Shown here: positions 2 through 41,091 of the stretch, in pieces
Layout: each line of letters starts with the position of its first letter
Numbering within the stretch: the first letter of the stretch is position 1
Assembly (NCBI GenBank): GCA_016185625.1
Contig: JACPND010000009.1
Location: 1-52,243 of the forward strand
Direction: 5' to 3'
Source: Candidatus Woesearchaeota archaeon
GTDB lineage: Archaea; Nanobdellota; Nanobdellia; Woesearchaeales; GW2011-AR9
Length of the DNA: 52,243 nt
Made by a program: the position numbers and the translations under genes
The notes under the pieces: model-generated
What the model saw: only the letters and a program-made list of their open reading frames with translations
The model's database searches: none
What the model was told of the DNA's origin: nothing

Positions 2-1588
2 AATGGGAACTATGTGAATTGTACTGCTCCGCTACCGGGAGCAGAGATATGCGACGGCCTGGACAATAATTGTAACGGAGCAGTAGACGAGGGGTTATTG
101 TTTACGATGGGATATCTGGATGATGATGGAGATGGGTTCGGTTCATCGACGTTTAAGGTCGATTGCAAAGAGTTAGGGGATGGCTATGCAACGAAATCAG
201 GCGATTGCAATGACAACAATCCTGAACAGTGGCAGGGGCTGCTGGGTTATGTTGATGCGGACAAAGACGGATATGGTACTGGCAGCCTTACTATGGTGTG
301 TTCAGGGGATTCACTTCCTGCTGGATTTGCCAGCAATGCAACAGACTGCAATAATGGAAATAATGCTATTTCCCCTGGTGCTTTGGAAATATGCGATGGT
401 CTTGACAATGATTGCAACACTGCCACTTATGATGGAAGCAGTCAAATTGCCCCCTTTAATTTACTTCAGGCAGGTATTTGCAGTGGTTCCCGACAGCAAT
501 GTATGGATGGAGCATGGCAAAGTTGGTATGGCGGTGTAGCTGGGTATGAAGCTGTGGAAGGAAGCTGTGATGGAATAGATAATGATTGTGATAAGGAGAC
601 TGATGAAGGATTGCTTTCTATCTGGTATTTAGATAATGATGGAGATGGATTTGGTGATGCCGCTACGTACAGCACTTCGTGCACCCCTACAGGTAATTAT
701 GTGTCCAACGCTGATGATTGTGACGACACTCAAAGTTCTGTCCATCCTGCCGGAAAAGAGCTCTGTGACCTTATTGATAATAATTGTGATGGAAAAATCG
801 ATGATGGTTGTCTTACCAAGATAGTATTTACCTCTCTCCGTGATGGCAATTCAGAGATTTACACCATGAACAGTGACGGAAGCAACCCCGTTCGATTGAC
901 AAATAATCCGGCTCAAGATTCTAATGCGTCCTGGTCTCCAAATGGAAAACAAATTGCCTTTGAGACTCAGCGTGATGGAAATGCAGAGATTTATGTGATG
1001 AACGCAGACGGGACGGGGCAAGTAAATATTACTAAGGATGGAAGAGACGATCGTTATCCCGCCTGGTCACCGGATGGGATGAGGATAGCTTTCTATTATT
1101 CAACTTGGGCGATTGCTACCATGGATATTGACGGTGGTAATCAAACGAAACTAACGGCTTCTTTTCCATATAGATATGCACCGGATTGGTCTCCGGAGGG
1201 CAGCAAAATCGTCCATACACAAGAAAGTCCACCCAATTCAGAAATTTATGTGATGGATTCCACGGGAGGCAACGAAAAGCAATTAACCAGCAATCCAGCA
1301 GTTGATGGGGGAGCAGCTTGGTCGCCTGACGGAACAACCATAGCGTTTTATAGCAACAGGGATGGGAATTTTGAAATCTACACTATGGCTACCGATGGAA
1401 GTGCATTGAAAAATCTGACCCAGCATGCGGCAAATGATGAAAAACCTTCCTGGTCTGGCAATAGCAGTAAAATTGTTTTTGTGTCCAATCGTGATGGAGA
1501 TTCGGAGATTTATATTATGAATGACGATGGAAGCGGCGTACAGAGATTGACATATAGTACAGGCGATGATAATGACCCTGATTGGTGA
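2..1588 (+). CDS. MopE-like Cys-rich repeat protein with TolB-type beta-propeller, 5' truncated by the window edge
   Basis: The reading frame is open to the first base of the window, so the true start lies upstream; the first in-frame GTG is at 14. The N-terminal half carries repeated MopE-type metal-binding motifs (CDGLDNNCNG, CDGLDNDC, CDGIDNDCD, CDLIDNNCDG) separated by DxDxDG acidic loops of the calcium-binding kind (DDDGDGFG, DADKDGYG, DNDGDGFG). The C-terminal half, from about residue 270, has six PD40/TolB-like blades, each with a variant of SRDGxxEIYxMxxDG followed by WSPDG. The design indicates a secreted or surface-attached protein with a six-bladed propeller. Family knowledge: MopE motifs bind copper or calcium outside the cell. 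The partner is unknown. The end of the protein looks complete. Confidence 0.85.
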   Translation, partial: NGNYVNCTAPLPGAEICDGLDNNCNGAVDEGLLFTMGYLDDDGDGFGSSTFKVDCKELGDGYATKSGDCNDNNPEQWQGLLGYVDADKDGYGTGSLTMVCSGDSLPAGFASNATDCNNGNNAISPGALEICDGLDNDCNTATYDGSSQIAPFNLLQAGICSGSRQQCMDGAWQSWYGGVAGYEAVEGSCDGIDNDCDKETDEGLLSIWYLDNDGDGFGDAATYSTSCTPTGNYVSNADDCDDTQSSVHPAGKELCDLIDNNCDGKIDDGCLTKIVFTSLRDGNSEIYTMNSDGSNPVRLTNNPAQDSNASWSPNGKQIAFETQRDGNAEIYVMNADGTGQVNITKDGRDDRYPAWSPDGMRIAFYYSTWAIATMDIDGGNQTKLTASFPYRYAPDWSPEGSKIVHTQESPPNSEIYVMDSTGGNEKQLTSNPAVDGGAAWSPDGTTIAFYSNRDGNFEIYTMATDGSALKNLTQHAANDEKPSWSGNSSKIVFVSNRDGDSEIYIMNDDGSGVQRLTYSTGDDNDPDW

Positions 1589-30361: not shown

Positions 30362-30523
30362 GTATTTGTTTAGCTCGGCGTGGTCAAATTTGCTTAACGA
30401 GCTGAACCTTTGCTCTGCACAAAAATAAGTTGCCCGCTTTTCTCTGTACTCCTCCATTTGTTCATCAAGAAACACCTCCGAGAGCGGGGCGAGGCAAGCG
30501 ACCGCCGATTGCTAAACAAATAC
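30362..30523. ncRNA. Candidate structured RNA with very long closing stem
   Basis: GTATTTGTTTAGC (30362-30374) pairs perfectly with GCTAAACAAATAC (30511-30523). Inside, TCGGCG pairs with CGCCGA and GTC with GAC, separated by 2-base bulges, for a stem of about 22 bp. A further internal hairpin pairs TTGC-CCGCT with AGCGG-GCAA. It exactly fills the gap between the zinc-finger gene and the end of polX. Function unknown. Confidence 0.6.
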
Positions 30524-32241
30524 TATTCCTTTAATGCTTTTTCTATCCTTTTTATGCTCCAGTGATTTAACAGATCTTTCTTCTCCAGCCAGCCGCGACG
30601 GGCACTCAGCACGCCCAGACGATAGAAAGGAAGATGGGAGATATCATGCCCATCAGTGCTTAACGCAAATAAGCATCCGGCTTCTTTCGCAGCCTTGACC
30701 TGCAGCCCGGAGAGATCCATACGTCCTGGGCTTCCATTAATCTCCATAAACACGTTCCGCCGTTTCGCAACATCAAACACTCTCTCCAGATTGATGGCCA
30801 TTGGCTCACGCTCATTTAATATTCTCCCGGTGGGATGGCCCAGAATATTGAGCGGATAGTTTTCCAAAGCATTACACACGCGTTTGGTCATTTCCTCTTC
30901 GGACATTTTCAGAGAAACATGAACGGAAGCAATAACGACATCAAATTCCTTCAATTTTTTCGCCGATAGGGGCAAGGTACCATCTTTTAGGATATCTATC
31001 TCCACGCCGGATAATACTCGGAGGCCAACTTTCTTGCGCACTTTTTCTATTTCTTTCAGGTATCCGGTTAATCGTTTCTCATTCAACGGATTGGTGATGC
31101 CCATGTGCCCAAAATGATCGTTAAACGAAATGAATTTCAAGCCAAGCTGTTCTGCTTTCTGCGCCATCTCCAATAAAGAATTATTCCCGTCGCTCCAGAT
31201 GCTGTGATTATGAAACACGCCGTTGATGTCCTTGGCGGTGACCAATCTGGGCAAGATTCCTTTCATGGCCGCGGGGATTTCTCCGGTATTTTCCCGCAGT
31301 TCCGGCTCGATATATTGTAATCCTAACTTTTTGTAAACCTCATCTTCCGTCCGCCCGGCAACCCATCTTTTGCCTTTCAATCGAAACAATCCGTACTCAC
31401 TTAACGTATAGCCTTTGCGTAAGGCGAGTTTCCGCAGTTCTACGTTGTGCTCTTTGTTGCCGATAAAATAAAGCATGGCTGAGCCAAATTCTTTTTCTTT
31501 CAGGACACGTAGATCAACCTGCAGCCCGTTGGTCAGCCGCACTGAACTGCGCGTTGAACCTTTCGCCAATACTTCTTTCACGTCCGGCATGGCGGTAAAT
31601 AAATTGACGACCTTCTCCGCCTTGTCGGATATGACCAGAAAATCAAGATCACCGACGGTCTCTTTTCCCCTACGAAAGGAACCGGTGATTTCCACCCGCT
31701 GCACACCATCGCCTTGTTGTAATCGTCTGGTAATTTCCTGCACGAGGGGAAGAGCATGCGCGTACAGAAAGCGCTGTGGTCTCGTTTTAATTAATTCTAT
31801 CCCTTTCAGGAGATTTTTCTCTGTTTCCTCGCCAAAGCCGTGTAGATCACGCAGCTTTCCCTGTAATATTGCTTTTTCTAAATCGTCAACTGTTTTTATG
31901 CCTAATTCCTGATATAATAATTTAATTTTCTTCGGTCCCAGCGTGGGAATCTTATTCAACTGTTCAATATCGACTTTAATCTCTTTCTTTAAATCATCAT
32001 AATATTTCAGTTTTCCGGTCTGGATGATTTCTTCCATCTTGACAGCAATATGTTCGCCGACGCCGGGAATTTCCATCAAGGCTTTCAGGCCGCCTTTGGT
32101 GTAGATGTCTCCCGCATCCTCGCTTAACGATTCCAAGGCTAGGGCCACCTTGCGATAGGCCAGCGGCTTGAACAGCACTTCCTGCAATTCGAGAATGTCG
32201 GCTATATTATACAGGATTTTGGCGATGTCCAAATTCTTCAT
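30523..32241 (-). CDS. polX: DNA polymerase X with PHP domain
   Basis: A 572-residue bacterial/archaeal-type PolX. The start at 32241 (MKNLDIAKIL) has the ribosome binding site GAGGTC just upstream; a longer frame to 32397 has an unrelated N-terminus. Order: helix-hairpin-helix region with IPGVGEHIA and IPTLGPKKIK (residues about 57-105), polymerase core GSFRRG (187-192) with Asp198, Asp200 and Asp243, then a PHP phosphoesterase domain from about residue 340 (FHNHSIWSDG, INGSPGR, LSTDGHDISHL). It performs gap-filling repair synthesis; the PHP domain provides 3'-5' exonuclease activity in homologues. Confidence 0.93.
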   Translation of the reverse strand: MKNLDIAKILYNIADILELQEVLFKPLAYRKVALALESLSEDAGDIYTKGGLKALMEIPGVGEHIAVKMEEIIQTGKLKYYDDLKKEIKVDIEQLNKIPTLGPKKIKLLYQELGIKTVDDLEKAILQGKLRDLHGFGEETEKNLLKGIELIKTRPQRFLYAHALPLVQEITRRLQQGDGVQRVEITGSFRRGKETVGDLDFLVISDKAEKVVNLFTAMPDVKEVLAKGSTRSSVRLTNGLQVDLRVLKEKEFGSAMLYFIGNKEHNVELRKLALRKGYTLSEYGLFRLKGKRWVAGRTEDEVYKKLGLQYIEPELRENTGEIPAAMKGILPRLVTAKDINGVFHNHSIWSDGNNSLLEMAQKAEQLGLKFISFNDHFGHMGITNPLNEKRLTGYLKEIEKVRKKVGLRVLSGVEIDILKDGTLPLSAKKLKEFDVVIASVHVSLKMSEEEMTKRVCNALENYPLNILGHPTGRILNEREPMAINLERVFDVAKRRNVFMEINGSPGRMDLSGLQVKAAKEAGCLFALSTDGHDISHLPFYRLGVLSARRGWLEKKDLLNHWSIKRIEKALKE

Positions 32242-32273: not shown

Positions 32274-32282
32274 ACTTTATAA
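32274..32282 (+). promoter_or_regulatory. TATA box upstream of the small gene and sigma factor
   Basis: ACTTTATAAAA-type sequence about 50 bases before the ATG at 32327, with an AGGAGGAGG ribosome binding site at 32305-32313. It points to an archaeal promoter driving the small gene and probably the sigma-like gene. Confidence 0.5.
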
Positions 32283-32326
32283 AAATAGTGGCAAGATTAA
32301 TAAAGGAGGAGGCATCAATATTCGTC

Positions 32327-32530
32327 ATGCCCAAAAATAAGCCCTGTTTGTTCACGTTGGGTGAACAACCACCTGCTGATCCAATAGAGCTACTCAAAGA
32401 AAGCTTGGAACGAAGCGCACGTGACTATAATCCTAACCGGGCAGACCAACAAAGAGACACGACACGGGCAATGCTAAATGAGCATCCAGAAAAGTTGTAT
32501 GCTCTTGGCGAGCCAGCTGACCAGCAATAA
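32327..32530 (+). CDS. Small protein upstream of the sigma-like gene
   Basis: A 67-residue protein, MPKNKPCLFTLGEQPPADPI..., with charged helices (LLKESLERSARDYN) and an acidic C-terminus. A strong AGGAGGAGG-type ribosome binding site precedes the ATG at 32327. A longer frame from 32168 lies within polX and is unlikely. Its end lies 13 bases before the preferred start of the sigma-like gene, so the two are probably co-expressed. No family recognised. A role as sigma partner or regulator is pure inference. Confidence 0.55.
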   Translation: MPKNKPCLFTLGEQPPADPIELLKESLERSARDYNPNRADQQRDTTRAMLNEHPEKLYALGEPADQQ

Positions 32531-32543
32531 TTCTTTACGCCTC

Positions 32544-33629
32544 ATGGTTGACCAGGATCTTCTGTCCCTGTATTTTGCAGATGTGAGCAAGCGGCCATTA
32601 CTTACAGAAGCAGAAACAAAAACATTGTTTGGGCAATTGGCATACTGCGATAGTAAGCTGGTCGAGGTGCAATTACGTGATCAGAGGCTGCGCCAAAGTC
32701 TCGAAGAACGGCTCGATGCCGATCAGAGTGAACAATATCGCCCTATCCCGGAAAAAAGGAAACGGTCATTTCTGTATCGTGCCCTGCCACTCTACGAAAT
32801 CCGTGGAGCCGCCCGAGAATCCGTTTCAAATGGCTATGAGGAGCGACTTGTCCGCCCGCTTCGTAAATTCTTATACGACATCAAAACCGTGCAGGATACT
32901 CTCTGTGAGCATAATCTGCGATTGGCAGTGAACATTGCCAAACAGTTTTACTCACGTTCTGCGGAAATCTCTTTGTTAGACCTGATTCAGGAAGGAACGC
33001 TGGGATTGTACAAAGCCATCGAGAGATTCGACTACCGCCGGGGATATAAATTGAGCACATATGCTATCTGGTGGATCAGGCAGAATATTGGGCGGTGGCT
33101 GGAGGAGAGAGGCCGGATAATACGATTGCCATGCCACGTTCAGCATGAGCTGCAAAAATATCGTCTGATCTCCAAGGGACTGGCATCTGAGCTGGGCCAT
33201 GAGCCTACCCCTGAGGAAGTTGGCGTGCGGGTTCTGGGGAAAGCCGAAAAGGTTCCTCAGTATCTGGAAAGAATGAGATGGTATTTTCAGTTAGACAAAA
33301 CAACGTCGCTGGATGCGGAAATCAAAGATGAAAAAACGTTTTTCACGTTAGTTGCTGATGTTGATTCCCCTGATCCTGAAGAAGAATGCGCCCGCTCTGA
33401 TTTTCGACGACATTTGTGGGCTATTACAAAAGAGACCCTCTCTCCCCGTGAGGCGCACATTCTTAATCAACGGTTTGGGTTGGGAAATGATGGCCCCTAT
33501 GATGACACTCAGACCTTGGAAAGGCTGGGAGCTGAGCTTCAGGTAACACGGGAGCGAGTCAGGCAGATTGAGAAACGATCGTTGCAAAAACTGCGGCGAA
33601 AACTTGTAGAGAGAAATGTGAGGTTATAA
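32544..33629 (+). CDS. Bacterial-type sigma-70 factor
   Basis: A 361-residue protein starting at MVDQDLLSLYF (ATG 32544); an ATG at 32478 would overlap the preceding gene and adds unconserved sequence. Region 1.2: DLLSLYFADVSKRPLLTEAE. A charged non-conserved stretch lies near residues 35-115. Region 2: HNLRLAVNIAKQF, SLLDLIQEGTLGLYKAIERF, KLSTYAIWWIRQNIGRWLEE. Region 3 follows (HELQKYRLISKGLASELGHEP). Region 4: LSPREAHILNQRFGLG and the DNA-binding helix LERLGAELQVTRERVRQIEK. All core regions are present, so it could bind both RNA polymerase and -10/-35 promoters. It is unexpected in an archaeon, which normally uses TBP/TFB. Confidence 0.93.
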   Translation: MVDQDLLSLYFADVSKRPLLTEAETKTLFGQLAYCDSKLVEVQLRDQRLRQSLEERLDADQSEQYRPIPEKRKRSFLYRALPLYEIRGAARESVSNGYEERLVRPLRKFLYDIKTVQDTLCEHNLRLAVNIAKQFYSRSAEISLLDLIQEGTLGLYKAIERFDYRRGYKLSTYAIWWIRQNIGRWLEERGRIIRLPCHVQHELQKYRLISKGLASELGHEPTPEEVGVRVLGKAEKVPQYLERMRWYFQLDKTTSLDAEIKDEKTFFTLVADVDSPDPEEECARSDFRRHLWAITKETLSPREAHILNQRFGLGNDGPYDDTQTLERLGAELQVTRERVRQIEKRSLQKLRRKLVERNVRL

Positions 33630-34613
33630 CTTGTTGAAGAAATTTTTTGAACCAAGCACCACCAATCTCGGATTTGCTTTCAGCCTGCGCTTCACATACG
33701 CAGCTCCTAATCCCGGTGCAAGTTCTATTGGCATATACTCCCGCACGATTTTTCCCCGCTGGCGAAGCTGCTCGCCCAGCACTTCCCCCGCCTGCACGCC
33801 GCGAAGGAACTGGAATTCGTACCTCTCTGGCGAAATGATCCCAGACCGCTCATAATGGTCAATAAGAGGAAGAAGCCGGTCTATAACTTCCTGGTCGTGC
33901 GTGGCAATTTCCACATAGACGCCAGCGGCGAATAATTCCAGAATTCTTTTCACCAAGCGGTTTTTCGCTTCGGGAATATTATTGGTGGCTATTTCTTCCG
34001 GCTCGTTGTAAATGCCGATGCAGGCACGCACGCGAATTTTCTCTTTGGGAAAGGGATAGGACGGTCGCGAGAGATAATAATCGATATCTTGTTGCGTCCG
34101 GTTCAGCCGCGACTGCAGGACGATGCCAAGATTGGTATATCCTTTTTCCAAAAGTTCTTCAGCCGCACTTAACGACACATCCGTCCAGCGATGATCTTCC
34201 ATATCCAATGTTACGTCCAAATCAGCTGCATGCCCGCACAACTGTTCTAACCGCTCCGGCAGAGGCGTTGATGCATCCAGCTGCAACGGTTCGGCTGAGA
34301 CAATGGCACAAATTGAAGAGGGTTTGACCGATAAAGAGACTGGCCGCTGATGCGGTGACTGGCCGCAGAAAATGCTGGAAAAGAAATGCGCCGCCTGAAT
34401 GTACGACAGAAGATAATGATCGGCTTCCTGCTTGGTCGTTGCTTCTTCACCCAGAATGTCAAACGTGGAATACCGGCCGCAATCGGTGTAATTCTCCTGC
34501 ACGGCCTGAAAGCCTTCCTCCAGTGAACTTCCTGCCAAATACGGCCGTCCGAGCGTGCTGATGACTCGTTTAGGGAGAAGAGAAATCGCGGCCCTGTTTA
34601 GTGTGTCTAACAT
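33624..34613 (-). CDS. Proline dehydrogenase
   Basis: A 329-residue FAD enzyme oxidising L-proline to delta-1-pyrroline-5-carboxylate. Barrel signatures: VTLDMEDHRWTD, NLGIVLQSRLNRT, RVRACIGIYNEP, RYEFQFLRGV and KIVREYMPI. The size fits a monofunctional PRODH rather than the PutA fusion. No membrane segment. The P5C dehydrogenase partner is not in the window. It converges with the sigma-like gene and overlaps it by 6 bases. Confidence 0.92.
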   Translation of the reverse strand: MLDTLNRAAISLLPKRVISTLGRPYLAGSSLEEGFQAVQENYTDCGRYSTFDILGEEATTKQEADHYLLSYIQAAHFFSSIFCGQSPHQRPVSLSVKPSSICAIVSAEPLQLDASTPLPERLEQLCGHAADLDVTLDMEDHRWTDVSLSAAEELLEKGYTNLGIVLQSRLNRTQQDIDYYLSRPSYPFPKEKIRVRACIGIYNEPEEIATNNIPEAKNRLVKRILELFAAGVYVEIATHDQEVIDRLLPLIDHYERSGIISPERYEFQFLRGVQAGEVLGEQLRQRGKIVREYMPIELAPGLGAAYVKRRLKANPRLVVLGSKNFFNKL

Positions 34614-36788: not shown

Positions 36789-36919
36789 CTTTGTCTTACG
36801 AATCGCAAAGTAACAGGCACTTCTTCGCATCCCCTACTTTTTACACAAAGCCCCGACAAAGTGAAAATTTATAAACTATTAAATTAAACCATTAAATGAT
36901 TGAATGAAAAATGGGGGTA

Positions 36920-37501
36920 ATGATGAATAAAAAAATAATATTGGTGTTTCTACTCTTCTCAAGCCTTTTGCTGCTTCTTGGATGCACTACCTTGACAGTG
37001 CAAGAGGATGAGCAATATCTCAACACAAAAGAAGTGCCAGATGCACAAGAACCCTCCGAAAAAGGATCTACCGGGTGGATGAACATAAACCTTGTAGATG
37101 TCAGAACCGGAAAGACTTTCAAAATTAGTGATTTCAAAGGAAGACCTGTATTATTGGAGAGCTTCGCGGTGTGGTGCCCTATTTGCACTCAACAGCAGAA
37201 GAAAATCAAAGAGTTGCATGAAGAAATTGGCGATACGTTCGTCTCCATATCCTTAGACACAGATCCTAATGAGGATGCTGCTAAAGTAAAAGAAGCAGCT
37301 GAAGAACGTGGGTTTAACTGGTATTTTACAGTTTCTCCCGTAGAATTGACCCAGGCTTTGATAGACCAATTTGGGGTCCGCGTGGTAGATGCACCAGCAG
37401 CACCAGTCATCCTTATCTGCGAAAATGGTTCTGCACGATTGCTCAAACGAGGCATAAAATCAGCGCAGGATTTGAAAGGAGAAATAAGCAGGGGATGTTG
37501 A
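36920..37501 (+). CDS. TlpA-like thioredoxin lipoprotein
   Basis: A 193-residue exported thioredoxin-like protein. The lipobox is LLLLLGC after a hydrophobic signal. The redoxin domain follows with FKISDFKGRPVLLESFAVWC and the active site CPIC (Cys at about residues 86 and 89), then TFVSISLDTDPNEDA and a cis-Pro region APAAPVIL. The GGGGGT sequence before ATGATG supports a start at 36920 or 36923 over the ATG at 36911. It is the first gene of the redox operon and probably receives electrons from the CcdA immediately downstream. Confidence 0.87.
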   Translation: MMNKKIILVFLLFSSLLLLLGCTTLTVQEDEQYLNTKEVPDAQEPSEKGSTGWMNINLVDVRTGKTFKISDFKGRPVLLESFAVWCPICTQQQKKIKELHEEIGDTFVSISLDTDPNEDAAKVKEAAEERGFNWYFTVSPVELTQALIDQFGVRVVDAPAAPVILICENGSARLLKRGIKSAQDLKGEISRGC

Positions 37502-38178
37502 TGGTAAGTGCATTGACTAATTTTTGGCTTTCTTTTTTAGCTGGTTTACTCGCACCGCTCGGGGCGGTCTGTGTTCTTCCTCTATATCCTGGATTTTTAG
37601 CGTATCTCGCCGGGAAAGTACCTAAAAAAGACCCTAAGAAAACTATCATTCTTCTGGGTGTTATTGTAACGCTGGGGGTAATGTTGTCCATGTTTATCTT
37701 CGGATTAATATTCACTCAATTTCTTCAAGCATCGCTGGCTAAAGCTATCGGAGTAATCTCTCCTATTGCATTTATAATTCTGGCAGTGGTCAGCGTTCTC
37801 CTCATCTTTAATGTTAATATCGGGAAATTTTTTCCTCAAACGCATGCGCCGATGCTTAAGAATCCATTTTTGAGTTCGCTTCTCTTTGGCTTATTTTTTG
37901 GTGCTATCATCCTGCCTTGTAATCCGGCCTCCTTAATTGTATTGTTTGCTATAAGCACTTCCACCATGACTTTTGTTGCCAATTTCCTTAATTTTGTTTT
38001 CTTTGGATTAGGAATGGGTTTGCCTTTATTGCTTATCTCCTTTATTTCAACCGCAAGAAGCCAGGAAGTCCTCGGTTTCTTATCCCAGCATCAGAGAGTT
38101 ATAAACATTATTGCCGGGATCATTATGTTAGGGGTTTCGCTATATTATCTTATTTTTGTGTTTAAGGTAGTGGGATAA
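37495..38178 (+). CDS. ccdA: CcdA/DsbD-type membrane electron carrier
   Basis: A 227-residue protein with six hydrophobic helices that passes electrons from cytoplasmic thioredoxin to the outside. Canonical order is kept: Cys26 in APLGAVCVLPLYPGFLAYLAG (helix 1) and Cys142 in IILPCNPASL (helix 4). AGGGG before the ATG at 37495 is the likely ribosome binding site. It overlaps the TlpA-like gene by 7 bases and lies 5 bases before the DUF3179 gene, so the three are co-translated. Confidence 0.88.
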   Translation: MLMVSALTNFWLSFLAGLLAPLGAVCVLPLYPGFLAYLAGKVPKKDPKKTIILLGVIVTLGVMLSMFIFGLIFTQFLQASLAKAIGVISPIAFIILAVVSVLLIFNVNIGKFFPQTHAPMLKNPFLSSLLFGLFFGAIILPCNPASLIVLFAISTSTMTFVANFLNFVFFGLGMGLPLLLISFISTARSQEVLGFLSQHQRVINIIAGIIMLGVSLYYLIFVFKVVG

Positions 38179-38183
38179 CAAAT

Positions 38184-39221
38184 ATGAGAAAGATAACCTT
38201 AATTGTTGGTTTGGTAGCGAGTTTGTTTTTGCTAGCTGGTTGTGTTCCACAAAAAGCAGTAACTCCAGAAAAAGTAACCGTTGATGAAAATTTAGTGGAT
38301 CGTCCCATGGAACCTTCTGAAGAAGAAGGAATTCAGGTTACCGAAAAAGGCGTGAAATACCTGGTGCATCCCAGTAAAATAATTAGCGGGGGGCCCCCCA
38401 AGGACGGGATTCCTTCGATTGATAACCCCAAATATGTTTCTGTAGAAGAAGCAGACGGATGGATTGAGGATAACGAATTGGTACTGGCTATTATTTACAA
38501 AGGAGTAAAGCGTATCTACCCCCTCCAAATTCTGGTATGGCATGAAATCGTGAATGATAAGGTTGCCGGTGATCCCGTGCTGATTACGTACTGTCCTTTG
38601 TGTGGTTCAGGAATTGCCTTTGAACGAACCATTGACATAAAGGGCAAAAGAGAAGAAGTAGAATTTGGAACTTCTGGTAAATTATACAATTCTAATTTAG
38701 TGATGTATGACAGAGTAACTGGCACCTACTGGACGCAGATCGGTGGGAAAGCAATCATCGGAGAATTGACGGGGCAGGAATTAAGTGAGATTTCGATTGA
38801 CACCGTAGTCTGGAGAGAATGGAAAGTCGAACATCCAGATTCAGACGTATTGAGTCAAGAAACCGGATACATCCGGGATTATGGCCGAGATCCATACGGT
38901 AATTATTATGAGGATAGTTATCTTTTTTTCCCGGTTGGGAATCAAGATAATAAAGTCCATCCTAAAACCGTTATTTTTGGAATTGAAGTCGATGGAACGT
39001 ATAAGGCATATCGGGAAGATGAGCTCATCAAAGCAGGGGTTATAGAAGATGTCTTTCATGGAATTCACATAAAAGTGAAGAGAGATGGGGCTGGAATGGT
39101 CAAAATCATTAATCTTGATACTGGAGAAGAAATCGTGAAGGAACGTGACTTCTGGTTCGCGTGGTACGCATTTCATCCGGAGACAGGTTTATATAGTCTG
39201 AAGAATGCATCTTCACCATGA
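38184..39221 (+). CDS. DUF3179 lipoprotein
   Basis: A 345-residue protein. Signal with lipobox FLLAGC. The DUF3179 core contains RIYPLQILVWHEIVND, TYCPLCGSGIAFER (Cys137 and Cys140), LYNSNLVMYDRVTGTYWTQ and the C-terminal FWFAWYAFHPETGLY. The biochemical role of DUF3179 is unknown. The CPLC pair and the position between two CcdA genes suggest a thiol or metal function on the outer face of the membrane. Its stop overlaps the next gene's start (ATGA at 39218). Confidence 0.85.
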   Translation: MRKITLIVGLVASLFLLAGCVPQKAVTPEKVTVDENLVDRPMEPSEEEGIQVTEKGVKYLVHPSKIISGGPPKDGIPSIDNPKYVSVEEADGWIEDNELVLAIIYKGVKRIYPLQILVWHEIVNDKVAGDPVLITYCPLCGSGIAFERTIDIKGKREEVEFGTSGKLYNSNLVMYDRVTGTYWTQIGGKAIIGELTGQELSEISIDTVVWREWKVEHPDSDVLSQETGYIRDYGRDPYGNYYEDSYLFFPVGNQDNKVHPKTVIFGIEVDGTYKAYREDELIKAGVIEDVFHGIHIKVKRDGAGMVKIINLDTGEEIVKERDFWFAWYAFHPETGLYSLKNASSP

Positions 39222-39943
39222 GACCTGGGCGCATCTTTTTGGCGAGTTTGTTCTTTGTCCTTGGTTTTTCCGTCATTTTCTCACTCGTCGGCGTCTTGCT
39301 GCAGAGCGTTCTCGCCAACGTCGCCGCAGGGGTACAGATTTGGCTCGGCCGTATCGGAGGGACAATCATCATTCTCTTCGGCCTCTATCTCTTGGGCCTG
39401 ATCAGCATACCCTTTCTGGAACGGGAACACAAGATGAGAGTGACCACCCAGTTTCGCTCGATGTACGTGACGTCGTTTGTCTTTGGTGCGGCCTTTGCCG
39501 TGGGCTGGACACCTTGCGTGGGAGCGGTGCTGGGCGCAATACTGACTCTGGCCGCCACTCAGCCAGGAACGGCATTTTTGCTGATGTTATCATATTCTTT
39601 AGGATTGGGAATCCCTTTTTTATTAGTGGGGTTATTTGCCAATCAGGCGCAGCGGCTCATTTCCAAAGCAGGAGCGTGGCTCAAATATGCGCAATATTTT
39701 TTCGGCGTGGTGCTGGTGATGCTGGGAATTTTTGTGTTTACCAATCAGCTTAGCCGTATTGCCAATCTCGCGTTTGTCTCTGATCTTCTTATCAGACTCA
39801 ATGTTGGCGGTATTATCGGTATGAGCAGCCTGAACCTCGGCATCGCCTTCTTTGCTGGGATTGTGTCCTTCCTAAGTCCGTGCGTATTGCCGTTAATTCC
39901 GGCATTTTTGTCCTATTTAGCGTCTGTAGGTGTGAAGCGATGA
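39218..39943 (+). CDS. Circularly permuted CcdA-like membrane protein
   Basis: A 241-residue protein with about six helices. All CcdA landmarks are present but in rotated order. It begins with the segment that normally follows helix 1 (IFLASLFFVLGFSVIFSLVG), continues with GWTPCVGAVLGAIL (Cys100), and ends with the helix that normally comes first, GIAFFAGIVSFLSPCVLPLI (Cys222). The upstream DUF3179 gene ends naturally, and the downstream gene begins in an ATGA overlap, so neither a lost 5' exon nor a frameshift explains it. Both Cys are retained, so it is probably functional with DipZ. Confidence 0.78.
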   Translation: MRPGRIFLASLFFVLGFSVIFSLVGVLLQSVLANVAAGVQIWLGRIGGTIIILFGLYLLGLISIPFLEREHKMRVTTQFRSMYVTSFVFGAAFAVGWTPCVGAVLGAILTLAATQPGTAFLLMLSYSLGLGIPFLLVGLFANQAQRLISKAGAWLKYAQYFFGVVLVMLGIFVFTNQLSRIANLAFVSDLLIRLNVGGIIGMSSLNLGIAFFAGIVSFLSPCVLPLIPAFLSYLASVGVKR

Positions 39944-41091
39944 AAACGAAAACAATTAGTTTAATCGTGGTAATAGCACTTATAGTTGGTGCAATTTATT
40001 ATTTAGAAAGTCAAAAAGTTAGTCCTGTCGCTCCTGCATTTCAACCTCCTTCAGAGAAGGCTGCTTCTCCTGAACCAGCTTCTGTCAATGTTTCTCCTAA
40101 ACTTGTTTCTGTCACTGAAATAGCAGAAACGAAAGTTCAGCCGCCATTCAAAGAGGGGATCTATCCTTTAGCGCCGGAACTGACGGGCATCACCGGCTAT
40201 ATCAATGCCAAAGAAGGATTAAAAATACAGGATTTCAGAGGAAAGGTCGTGCTCATTGATTTCTGGACGTATACCTGCATCAACTGCATCCGCACGCTGC
40301 CTCATTTAATTGCCTGGGATCAGAAATACAAAGAGCAGGGATTGGTGATTATCGGGGTGCATTCGCCGGAATTTGAATTTGAGAAAGATAAGGATAATGT
40401 GCAGGCAGCGATGGAAAAATATGGGATAACCTATCGCGTGGTGCAGGATAATGATCACGCCACCTGGAGCGCCTTCAAAAATCGCTTCTGGCCACATAAA
40501 TATTTGATTGACAAGGACGGCTATATCCGTTATGATCACATTGGCGAAGGGGCATATGAAAAAACGGAAAAGAAAATTCAGGAATTGCTGGCGGAAATTA
40601 ATCCTGCGGCACTGCAAATCAATATGACCACAATGCCTGATCTCACTCCGACAAAGAAATTAACGCCGGAACTGTATGCCGGCTATGAGTTTGCGCTGCC
40701 CAGGGGACAAGATCTTGGAAATGCCGGCGGACTGCAGCCAGGAAAAGAATTGGACTACATCCTTCCGACAACACTAACATCGGATGTTGTGTATCTCGAA
40801 GGCAGATGGAAAAGCAGTCCTGATGCTCTGGAAGCTCTGTCTCCGGGAAAAATTGTCTTACGCTTCACTGCCGAGGATGTGAATATTGTTGCCGATGGGA
40901 AAGGAAACATGAAAGTACTCATTGATGGCCGTGTGGTTGCTGAAGAGCAAATGGGAGCTGATGTGCACAATGGAGCTGTGGACATTGACATGGCTCGTCT
41001 GTACAACATTATTAACGGTAAGTATGGCACGTATACGTTAACGCTGGAAGTTGAACCGGGATTCACCTTTAATGCGTTTACGTTTGGGTGA
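39940..41091 (+). CDS. DipZ-like thioredoxin with C-terminal carbohydrate-binding-like domain
   Basis: A 383-residue protein starting at the ATG at 39940, which overlaps the CcdA stop. An N-terminal helix (ISLIVVIALIVGAIYYL) anchors it, with a Pro/Ala/Ser linker to about residue 70. The thioredoxin domain has VVLIDFWTYTCINCIRTLPH (Cys113, Cys116), VIIGVHSPEFEFEKD and WPHKYLIDKDGYIRYDHIGE. The C-terminal domain from about 250 (LGNAGGLQPG ... NIVADGKGNMKVLIDG) matches the DipZ type. In bacterial DipZ the CcdA domain is fused to this; here it is split. The 3' end forms half of a 28-base direct repeat. Confidence 0.88.
   Translation: MKTKTISLIVVIALIVGAIYYLESQKVSPVAPAFQPPSEKAASPEPASVNVSPKLVSVTEIAETKVQPPFKEGIYPLAPELTGITGYINAKEGLKIQDFRGKVVLIDFWTYTCINCIRTLPHLIAWDQKYKEQGLVIIGVHSPEFEFEKDKDNVQAAMEKYGITYRVVQDNDHATWSAFKNRFWPHKYLIDKDGYIRYDHIGEGAYEKTEKKIQELLAEINPAALQINMTTMPDLTPTKKLTPELYAGYEFALPRGQDLGNAGGLQPGKELDYILPTTLTSDVVYLEGRWKSSPDALEALSPGKIVLRFTAEDVNIVADGKGNMKVLIDGRVVAEEQMGADVHNGAVDIDMARLYNIINGKYGTYTLTLEVEPGFTFNAFTFG

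Follow-up and report, generated by a model that had tools for sequence, protein, structure and literature searches.

A sigma-70 family gene native to a Woesearchaeota genome and its possible role beside TBP and TFB

The window considered here is the entire contig JACPND010000009.1 (52,243 nucleotides) of the Candidatus Woesearchaeota archaeon assembly GCA_016185625.1. On its plus strand, at 32544..33629, lies a sigma-70 family gene whose uninterrupted frame of 361 codons, exactly where the original prediction had placed it, encodes the 361-aa protein P0001. Three Pfam domains, each scoring better than its curated cut-off, make up most of the product: region 2 (PF04542, residues 121-191, 32904..33116, E-value 3e-17), which bears the -10 reading and melting helix and, by the residue table, the core-docking helix 2.2 (residues 144-161, 32973-33026); region 3 (PF04539, residues 202-280, 33147..33383, 9e-8); and region 4 (PF04545, 33435..33596, 5e-14), in which the residue table locates the -35 reading helix VTRERVRQIE. 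Region 1.2, also expected to be recognisable, is the weakest part of the protein: a weak stretch resembling it spans residues 4-27 (32553..32624), the motif DLLSLYFADVSKRPLLTEAE is present, and the model TIGR02997 aligns from residue 5, but the Pfam model of this region stays silent even at E<=10. Region 1.1 is missing, and the N-terminus is region 1.2 itself. The family model TIGR02937 is matched at 99.8 bits (cut-off 42.9), the top match in the PDB is RpoD (E 1.6e-45), and an AlphaFold2 model (mean pLDDT 79.6) aligns in Foldseek with the SigA chains of initiation complexes at E 4e-15 over 361 columns; global TM-scores reach only 0.3-0.4, a low value that probably reflects a shift of the domains relative to each other.

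The sigma gene may not be the first of its transcript. A probable ORF of 67 aa (32327..32530, plus strand), suggested by its codon score, ends 13 nt before the sigma ATG and could be co-transcribed; its coding score exceeds that of 98% of wrong frames and is lower than that of 95% of real genes, and no homologue occurs across the genomes of the family, so that its status is that of a candidate. It encloses an imperfect inverted repeat (32345-32371). Comparison with the promoter profile of the genome places a TATA-like box, CTTTATAAAAATA, at 32275..32287 on the same strand as the candidate promoter of both frames, and the sigma gene is probably transcribed from such an archaeal TATA promoter. 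An in-frame ATG upstream, at 32478, offers an alternative start, and the ATG at 32544, past the stop of the small ORF, is the likelier of the two. The divergent neighbour is a DNA polymerase X with a PHP domain (30523..32241, minus strand; NCBIfam PRK08609 above cut-off), its start probably at 32241, and the convergent one is a gene with a proline dehydrogenase domain (33624..34613, minus strand; Pfam PF01619), whose end overlaps that of the sigma gene by 6 nt. Elsewhere in the window, a cluster of thioredoxin-like, DsbD-like and DUF3179 genes (36911-41091, plus strand) may form a redox system, and the protein encoded at 14-1588 (plus strand) combines PD40 beta-propeller repeats with putative metal-binding motifs of the MopE type.

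By its regions 2 and 4 and its -10/-35 reading residues, P0001 belongs to the sigma-70 superfamily. It shares regions 2, 3 and 4 and the key -10/-35 residues with bacterial RpoD/SigA and the group 2 sigmas (TIGR02393, TIGR02997), and differs from them in the lack of region 1.1 and in the archaeal nature of the RNA polymerase (RNAP) in its cell. Its best NCBIfam match is the group 2-like TIGR02997, aligned over the whole model at 213 bits against a cut-off of 384.5; the group 1 model TIGR02393 (RpoD/SigA) gives 199 bits against 354, which together with the missing region 1.1 places the protein outside group 1. The model of the MZA-system sigma MzaA (NF041931) is likewise scored far below its cut-off (200 bits against 800).

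The genome around this gene is archaeal. A draft of 1.16 Mb in 46 contigs, rated 100% complete with 1% contamination, it contains a partial archaeal 16S rRNA gene (497.5 bits) and encodes an archaeal RNAP with split Rpo2 and Rpo1', one TBP and one TFB (C21:26862-27791); the large RNAP subunits found are the archaeal ones only, and no bacterial RNAP is present. The contig agrees with the rest of the genome in GC content and codon usage, the sigma gene itself has genome-like GC3 and codon usage, and genes for Gins51, RtcB, Lhr and an SFM1-like protein lie on the same contig. The sequence profile upstream of 386 host genes displays an A-rich BRE at -37..-32 and a TATA element at -30..-22 with leaderless spacing, and a TATA-like box precedes 17 of the 28 genes in the window, in keeping with the archaeal promoter style ascribed earlier to the surrounding genes. 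The gene for P0001 is thus a native gene of a real archaeal genome, and the claim of a bacterial-type sigma-70 in an archaeon is borne out.

It is also not the only one. A further sigma of the host, an ECF-type protein of 187 aa (C26:20774-21337, plus strand; L180:774-1334), is encoded between genes recognised by eye as phosphoglycerate mutase and an aminoacyl-tRNA synthetase, with no anti-sigma-like gene seen beside it. Among the relatives, short sigma genes at 20 loci (L295-L314) lie amid ordinary archaeal genes, and a scan for HxxxCxxC motifs with membrane helices revealed no zinc-type anti-sigma next to any of them. Other archaeal sigmas are fused to the C-terminal DNA-binding domain of bacterial DnaA or to a helicase C-terminal domain (L101:393-2651, minus strand; L205:371-3661, plus strand). 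At L303 a short sigma gene lies near a TFB-like gene, and at L298 (G025) and L299 (G024) an ECF-type sigma overlaps the start of a methyltransferase-like gene, a conserved pair.

Relatives of P0001 occur in 39 of the 49 genomes of the family, and sigma region 2 in 112 of the 371 genomes of the phylum (about 30%), including the single-contig genomes G052 and G088. Bacterial relatives share about 42-44% identity with P0001 over the core. Within the family, P0001 shares about 25-50% identity with the other sigmas (mostly 28-46% in the longer matches), compared with 73-87% for Rpo1'. The phylogeny called for by the original prediction groups the archaeal sigmas together (11 changes against a shuffled mean of 26.7) on a star-like tree whose deep nodes are weak. 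No viral, phage or plasmid relative is closer to P0001 than bacterial sigmas in general, and an origin from such an element was rejected on this ground.

In about 12 relatives the sigma gene or genes follow directly, on the same strand, a gene of 235-305 aa for a membrane-anchored protein. Its winged helix, which would face the cytoplasm, is a database match to DUF7343; a signal peptide, a sheet-rich extracellular part and a single membrane helix were read by eye. The gene for IleRS lies on the other side of this slot in several of these genomes. The membrane winged-helix gene is itself present in 39 of the 49 family genomes (for example at L191:11845-12573, L195:1817-2524, L199:2594-3295, L292:1462-2220 (G000:C4:35631-36380), G000 being the host), and in about 8-9 genomes it adjoins IleRS with no sigma between. 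The host lacks the slot: its winged-helix gene is on C4, IleRS on C28 and the sigma gene on another contig. Pairwise identities among slot genomes are 51-68% for IleRS and 24-54% for sigma, counting G015, where IleRS lies near the slot copy without adjoining it. The tandem sigma triples of G013 and G014, from one genus, are orthologous (L195:2557-6994, L196:86-4498). Five pairs of sigmas give dN/dS values of about 0.2-0.4, some of them at a dS close to saturation; this indicates that the sigmas of the relatives are under purifying selection, and the slot copies are likely to reflect vertical inheritance with fast change.

In 39 archaeal sigmas the segments 2.2, 2.3-2.4 and 4.2 are the best kept: their identity to the bacterial consensus is 0.57-0.60, that of the other segments 0.28-0.45, in a bacterial comparison set that is mostly Verrucomicrobia because it was fetched using P0001. 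With residue numbering verified against E. coli RpoD, RpoB and RpoC, the docking residues D403, E407, N409 and Q406 are kept in 85%, 79%, 74% and 72% of these sigmas, the melting residues Y430 and W434 in 90% and 85%, and R584, E585, R588 and Q589 of the -35 helix in 90-92%. Most members have a linker of unchanged length between regions 3 and 4, and S255/L256 are retained. P0001 has Y430, W433, W434, Q437, R584, E585, R586, R588 and Q589, with T440 replaced by G, and the polymerase-binding and -10/-35 recognition helices predicted for it are indeed present in helix 2.2, 2.3-2.4 and 4.2. L402, on the other hand, is lost from 74% of the archaeal sigmas.

On the side of the polymerase, the picture is one of divergence from the bacterial partner. 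Alignment places I, L, D and H of the archaeal clamp coiled coil at E. coli R275, E295, R297 and A302, which we take to be its sigma-contact positions, and the flap-tip helix EEKLLRAIF is absent. The beta' coiled coil is the binding site of sigma 2.2, and the beta flap is that of sigma 4 (PMC4598750). A sigma acting on the archaeal enzyme would therefore need altered docking, which the loss of L402 may reflect. P0001 would meet the RNAP core with helix 2.2 retained and with partner surfaces that differ. No co-adaptation is visible in the Rpo1' clamp coiled coil, which is near-identical with or without an RpoD-like sigma in the 27 readable genomes, a comparison in which two of the five 'sigma-less' genomes (G006, G024) do have shorter sigma-region-2 proteins.

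The search for -35/-10 promoters, proposed as a check on the function of the gene, returned no enrichment. In the host genome, its contigs joined for the count, 28 sites match the consensus at 10/12 positions or better, compared with a mean of 29.5 with a shuffled -35; TTGACA by itself is unenriched there, as are consensus sites within the window. Across the 49 genomes, exact consensus sites number 57, whereas the reversed pattern has about 54 (summed from the table), and 32 exact matches at the wrong spacing are found among the sites listed. Of the sites examined, 3 of 41 with the consensus lie in promoter position, and 2 of 20 with the wrong spacing. Autoregulation receives no support either: -35/-10 elements occur in 3 of 38 sigma upstream regions, against 2.5 in shuffles, while TATA-like boxes are frequent before the sigma genes of relatives. 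This makes it less likely that consensus -35/-10 promoters are widely used and, together with the BRE/TATA profile, indicates that main transcription is driven by TBP/TFB; any sigma regulon would be small or would recognise a changed sequence.

What, then, could P0001 do in this cell? The sequences document its fold, the integrity and distribution of its gene, the retained docking and DNA-reading residues, the purifying selection on its relatives and the archaeal-type promoters of the genome. From the retention of docking and strand-opening residues we tentatively propose, at somewhat under an even chance, that P0001 serves the RNAP of its own cell as an accessory (alternative) initiation factor, active at few promoters; its polymerase binding, promoter opening and small regulon are what we infer. 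In this reading an authentic archaeal gene of bacterial sigma-70 ancestry, kept in the lineage, encodes a protein whose helix 2.2 would dock on the coiled coil of the RNAP clamp, in the only RNAP that the host has. Region 2.3-2.4 would capture the opened strand of a -10-like element and helix 4.2 would read a -35-like element, and the few promoters served in this way would be started either together with TBP/TFB or independently of them. Such a protein would share with TFB/TFIIB the expected role of opening promoters on an archaeal RNAP, but it has neither zinc ribbon nor cyclin repeats, and the host has a separate TFB. In favour of this proposal speak the native gene in a cell whose only encoded RNAP is archaeal, the preferential conservation of 2.2, 2.3-2.4 and 4.2 with the mostly kept linker length, and, among relatives, purifying selection, frequent TATA-like boxes and the slot in about 12 genomes. 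Against it stand the lack of promoter enrichment, the unadapted coiled coil without bacterial sigma-contact residues, the missing flap-tip helix, the frequent loss of L402, and a patchy presence with very fast divergence.

The altered or missing docking surfaces and the lack of promoter enrichment would suit a sigma-derived DNA-binding regulator (an activator, repressor or DNA-processing factor) that does not itself start transcription, as would the fusions of relatives' sigmas to a DnaA DNA-binding domain and a helicase. This main rival we consider rather unlikely: helix 2.2 and the strand-capturing aromatics are kept as well as the DNA-reading helix, and the linker between regions 3 and 4 retains its length; a plain DNA binder would require neither the docking helix and the aromatics nor such a linker. 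It is improbable that P0001 directs a foreign bacterial-type RNAP, whether that of a bacterial partner or one from a mobile element. Bacterial-type docking residues retained opposite an RNAP without the bacterial partner residues, in a genome showing no sigma promoters, would fit such a role, but no export signal was seen in P0001 by eye, its virus and plasmid relatives are no closer than general bacterial sigmas, and the genome has no bacterial RNAP. Very improbable, too, is a functionless gene that was acquired recently or is decaying, which patchy presence and large divergence might suggest but which is at odds with the intact frame, the native codon usage and, in relatives, the purifying selection, orthologous tandem sets and conserved slot. 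Contamination or a chimeric contig, the objection the original prediction itself raised and one that a 46-contig draft invites, has a negligible probability and is rejected given the matching composition, the archaeal 16S, RNAP, TBP and TFB, the archaeal genes on the contig, the relatives in 39 of 49 genomes, the sigmas borne by G052, G088 and a 1.47-Mb contig of G022, and the exclusion of mis-binning for the published DPANN set (PMC8204110).

Initiation factors form a dividing line between bacteria on one side and archaea and eukaryotes on the other, and sigma, to our knowledge, was long thought confined to bacteria as a transcription-start protein. Complete sigma factors were reportedly found in archaeal single-cell genomes by Rinke et al. 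in 2013, the earlier report to which the original prediction referred and which fits the present case. The same phenomenon is covered by a later study that described sigma-70 in DPANN archaea, chiefly Woesearchaeota, as fam00359 (Castelle et al. 2021, PMC8204110). The present case is like that set in being a native sigma-70 gene in a small TBP/TFB archaeal genome with no anti-sigma recognised. It is therefore of a kind already known; added here are the data on retained residues and on the RNAP surfaces, the promoter tests, the slot of the relatives, the ECF gene of the host and the 67-aa ORF. The membrane winged-helix, sigma and IleRS slot of the relatives is a starting point in the search for a partner or sensor. 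With sigma region 2 in nearly a third of the genomes of the phylum, the question concerns a large group, and an organism that combines a single archaeal RNAP and TBP/TFB promoters with two intact sigma genes amounts to a natural test of sigma on the other kind of polymerase.
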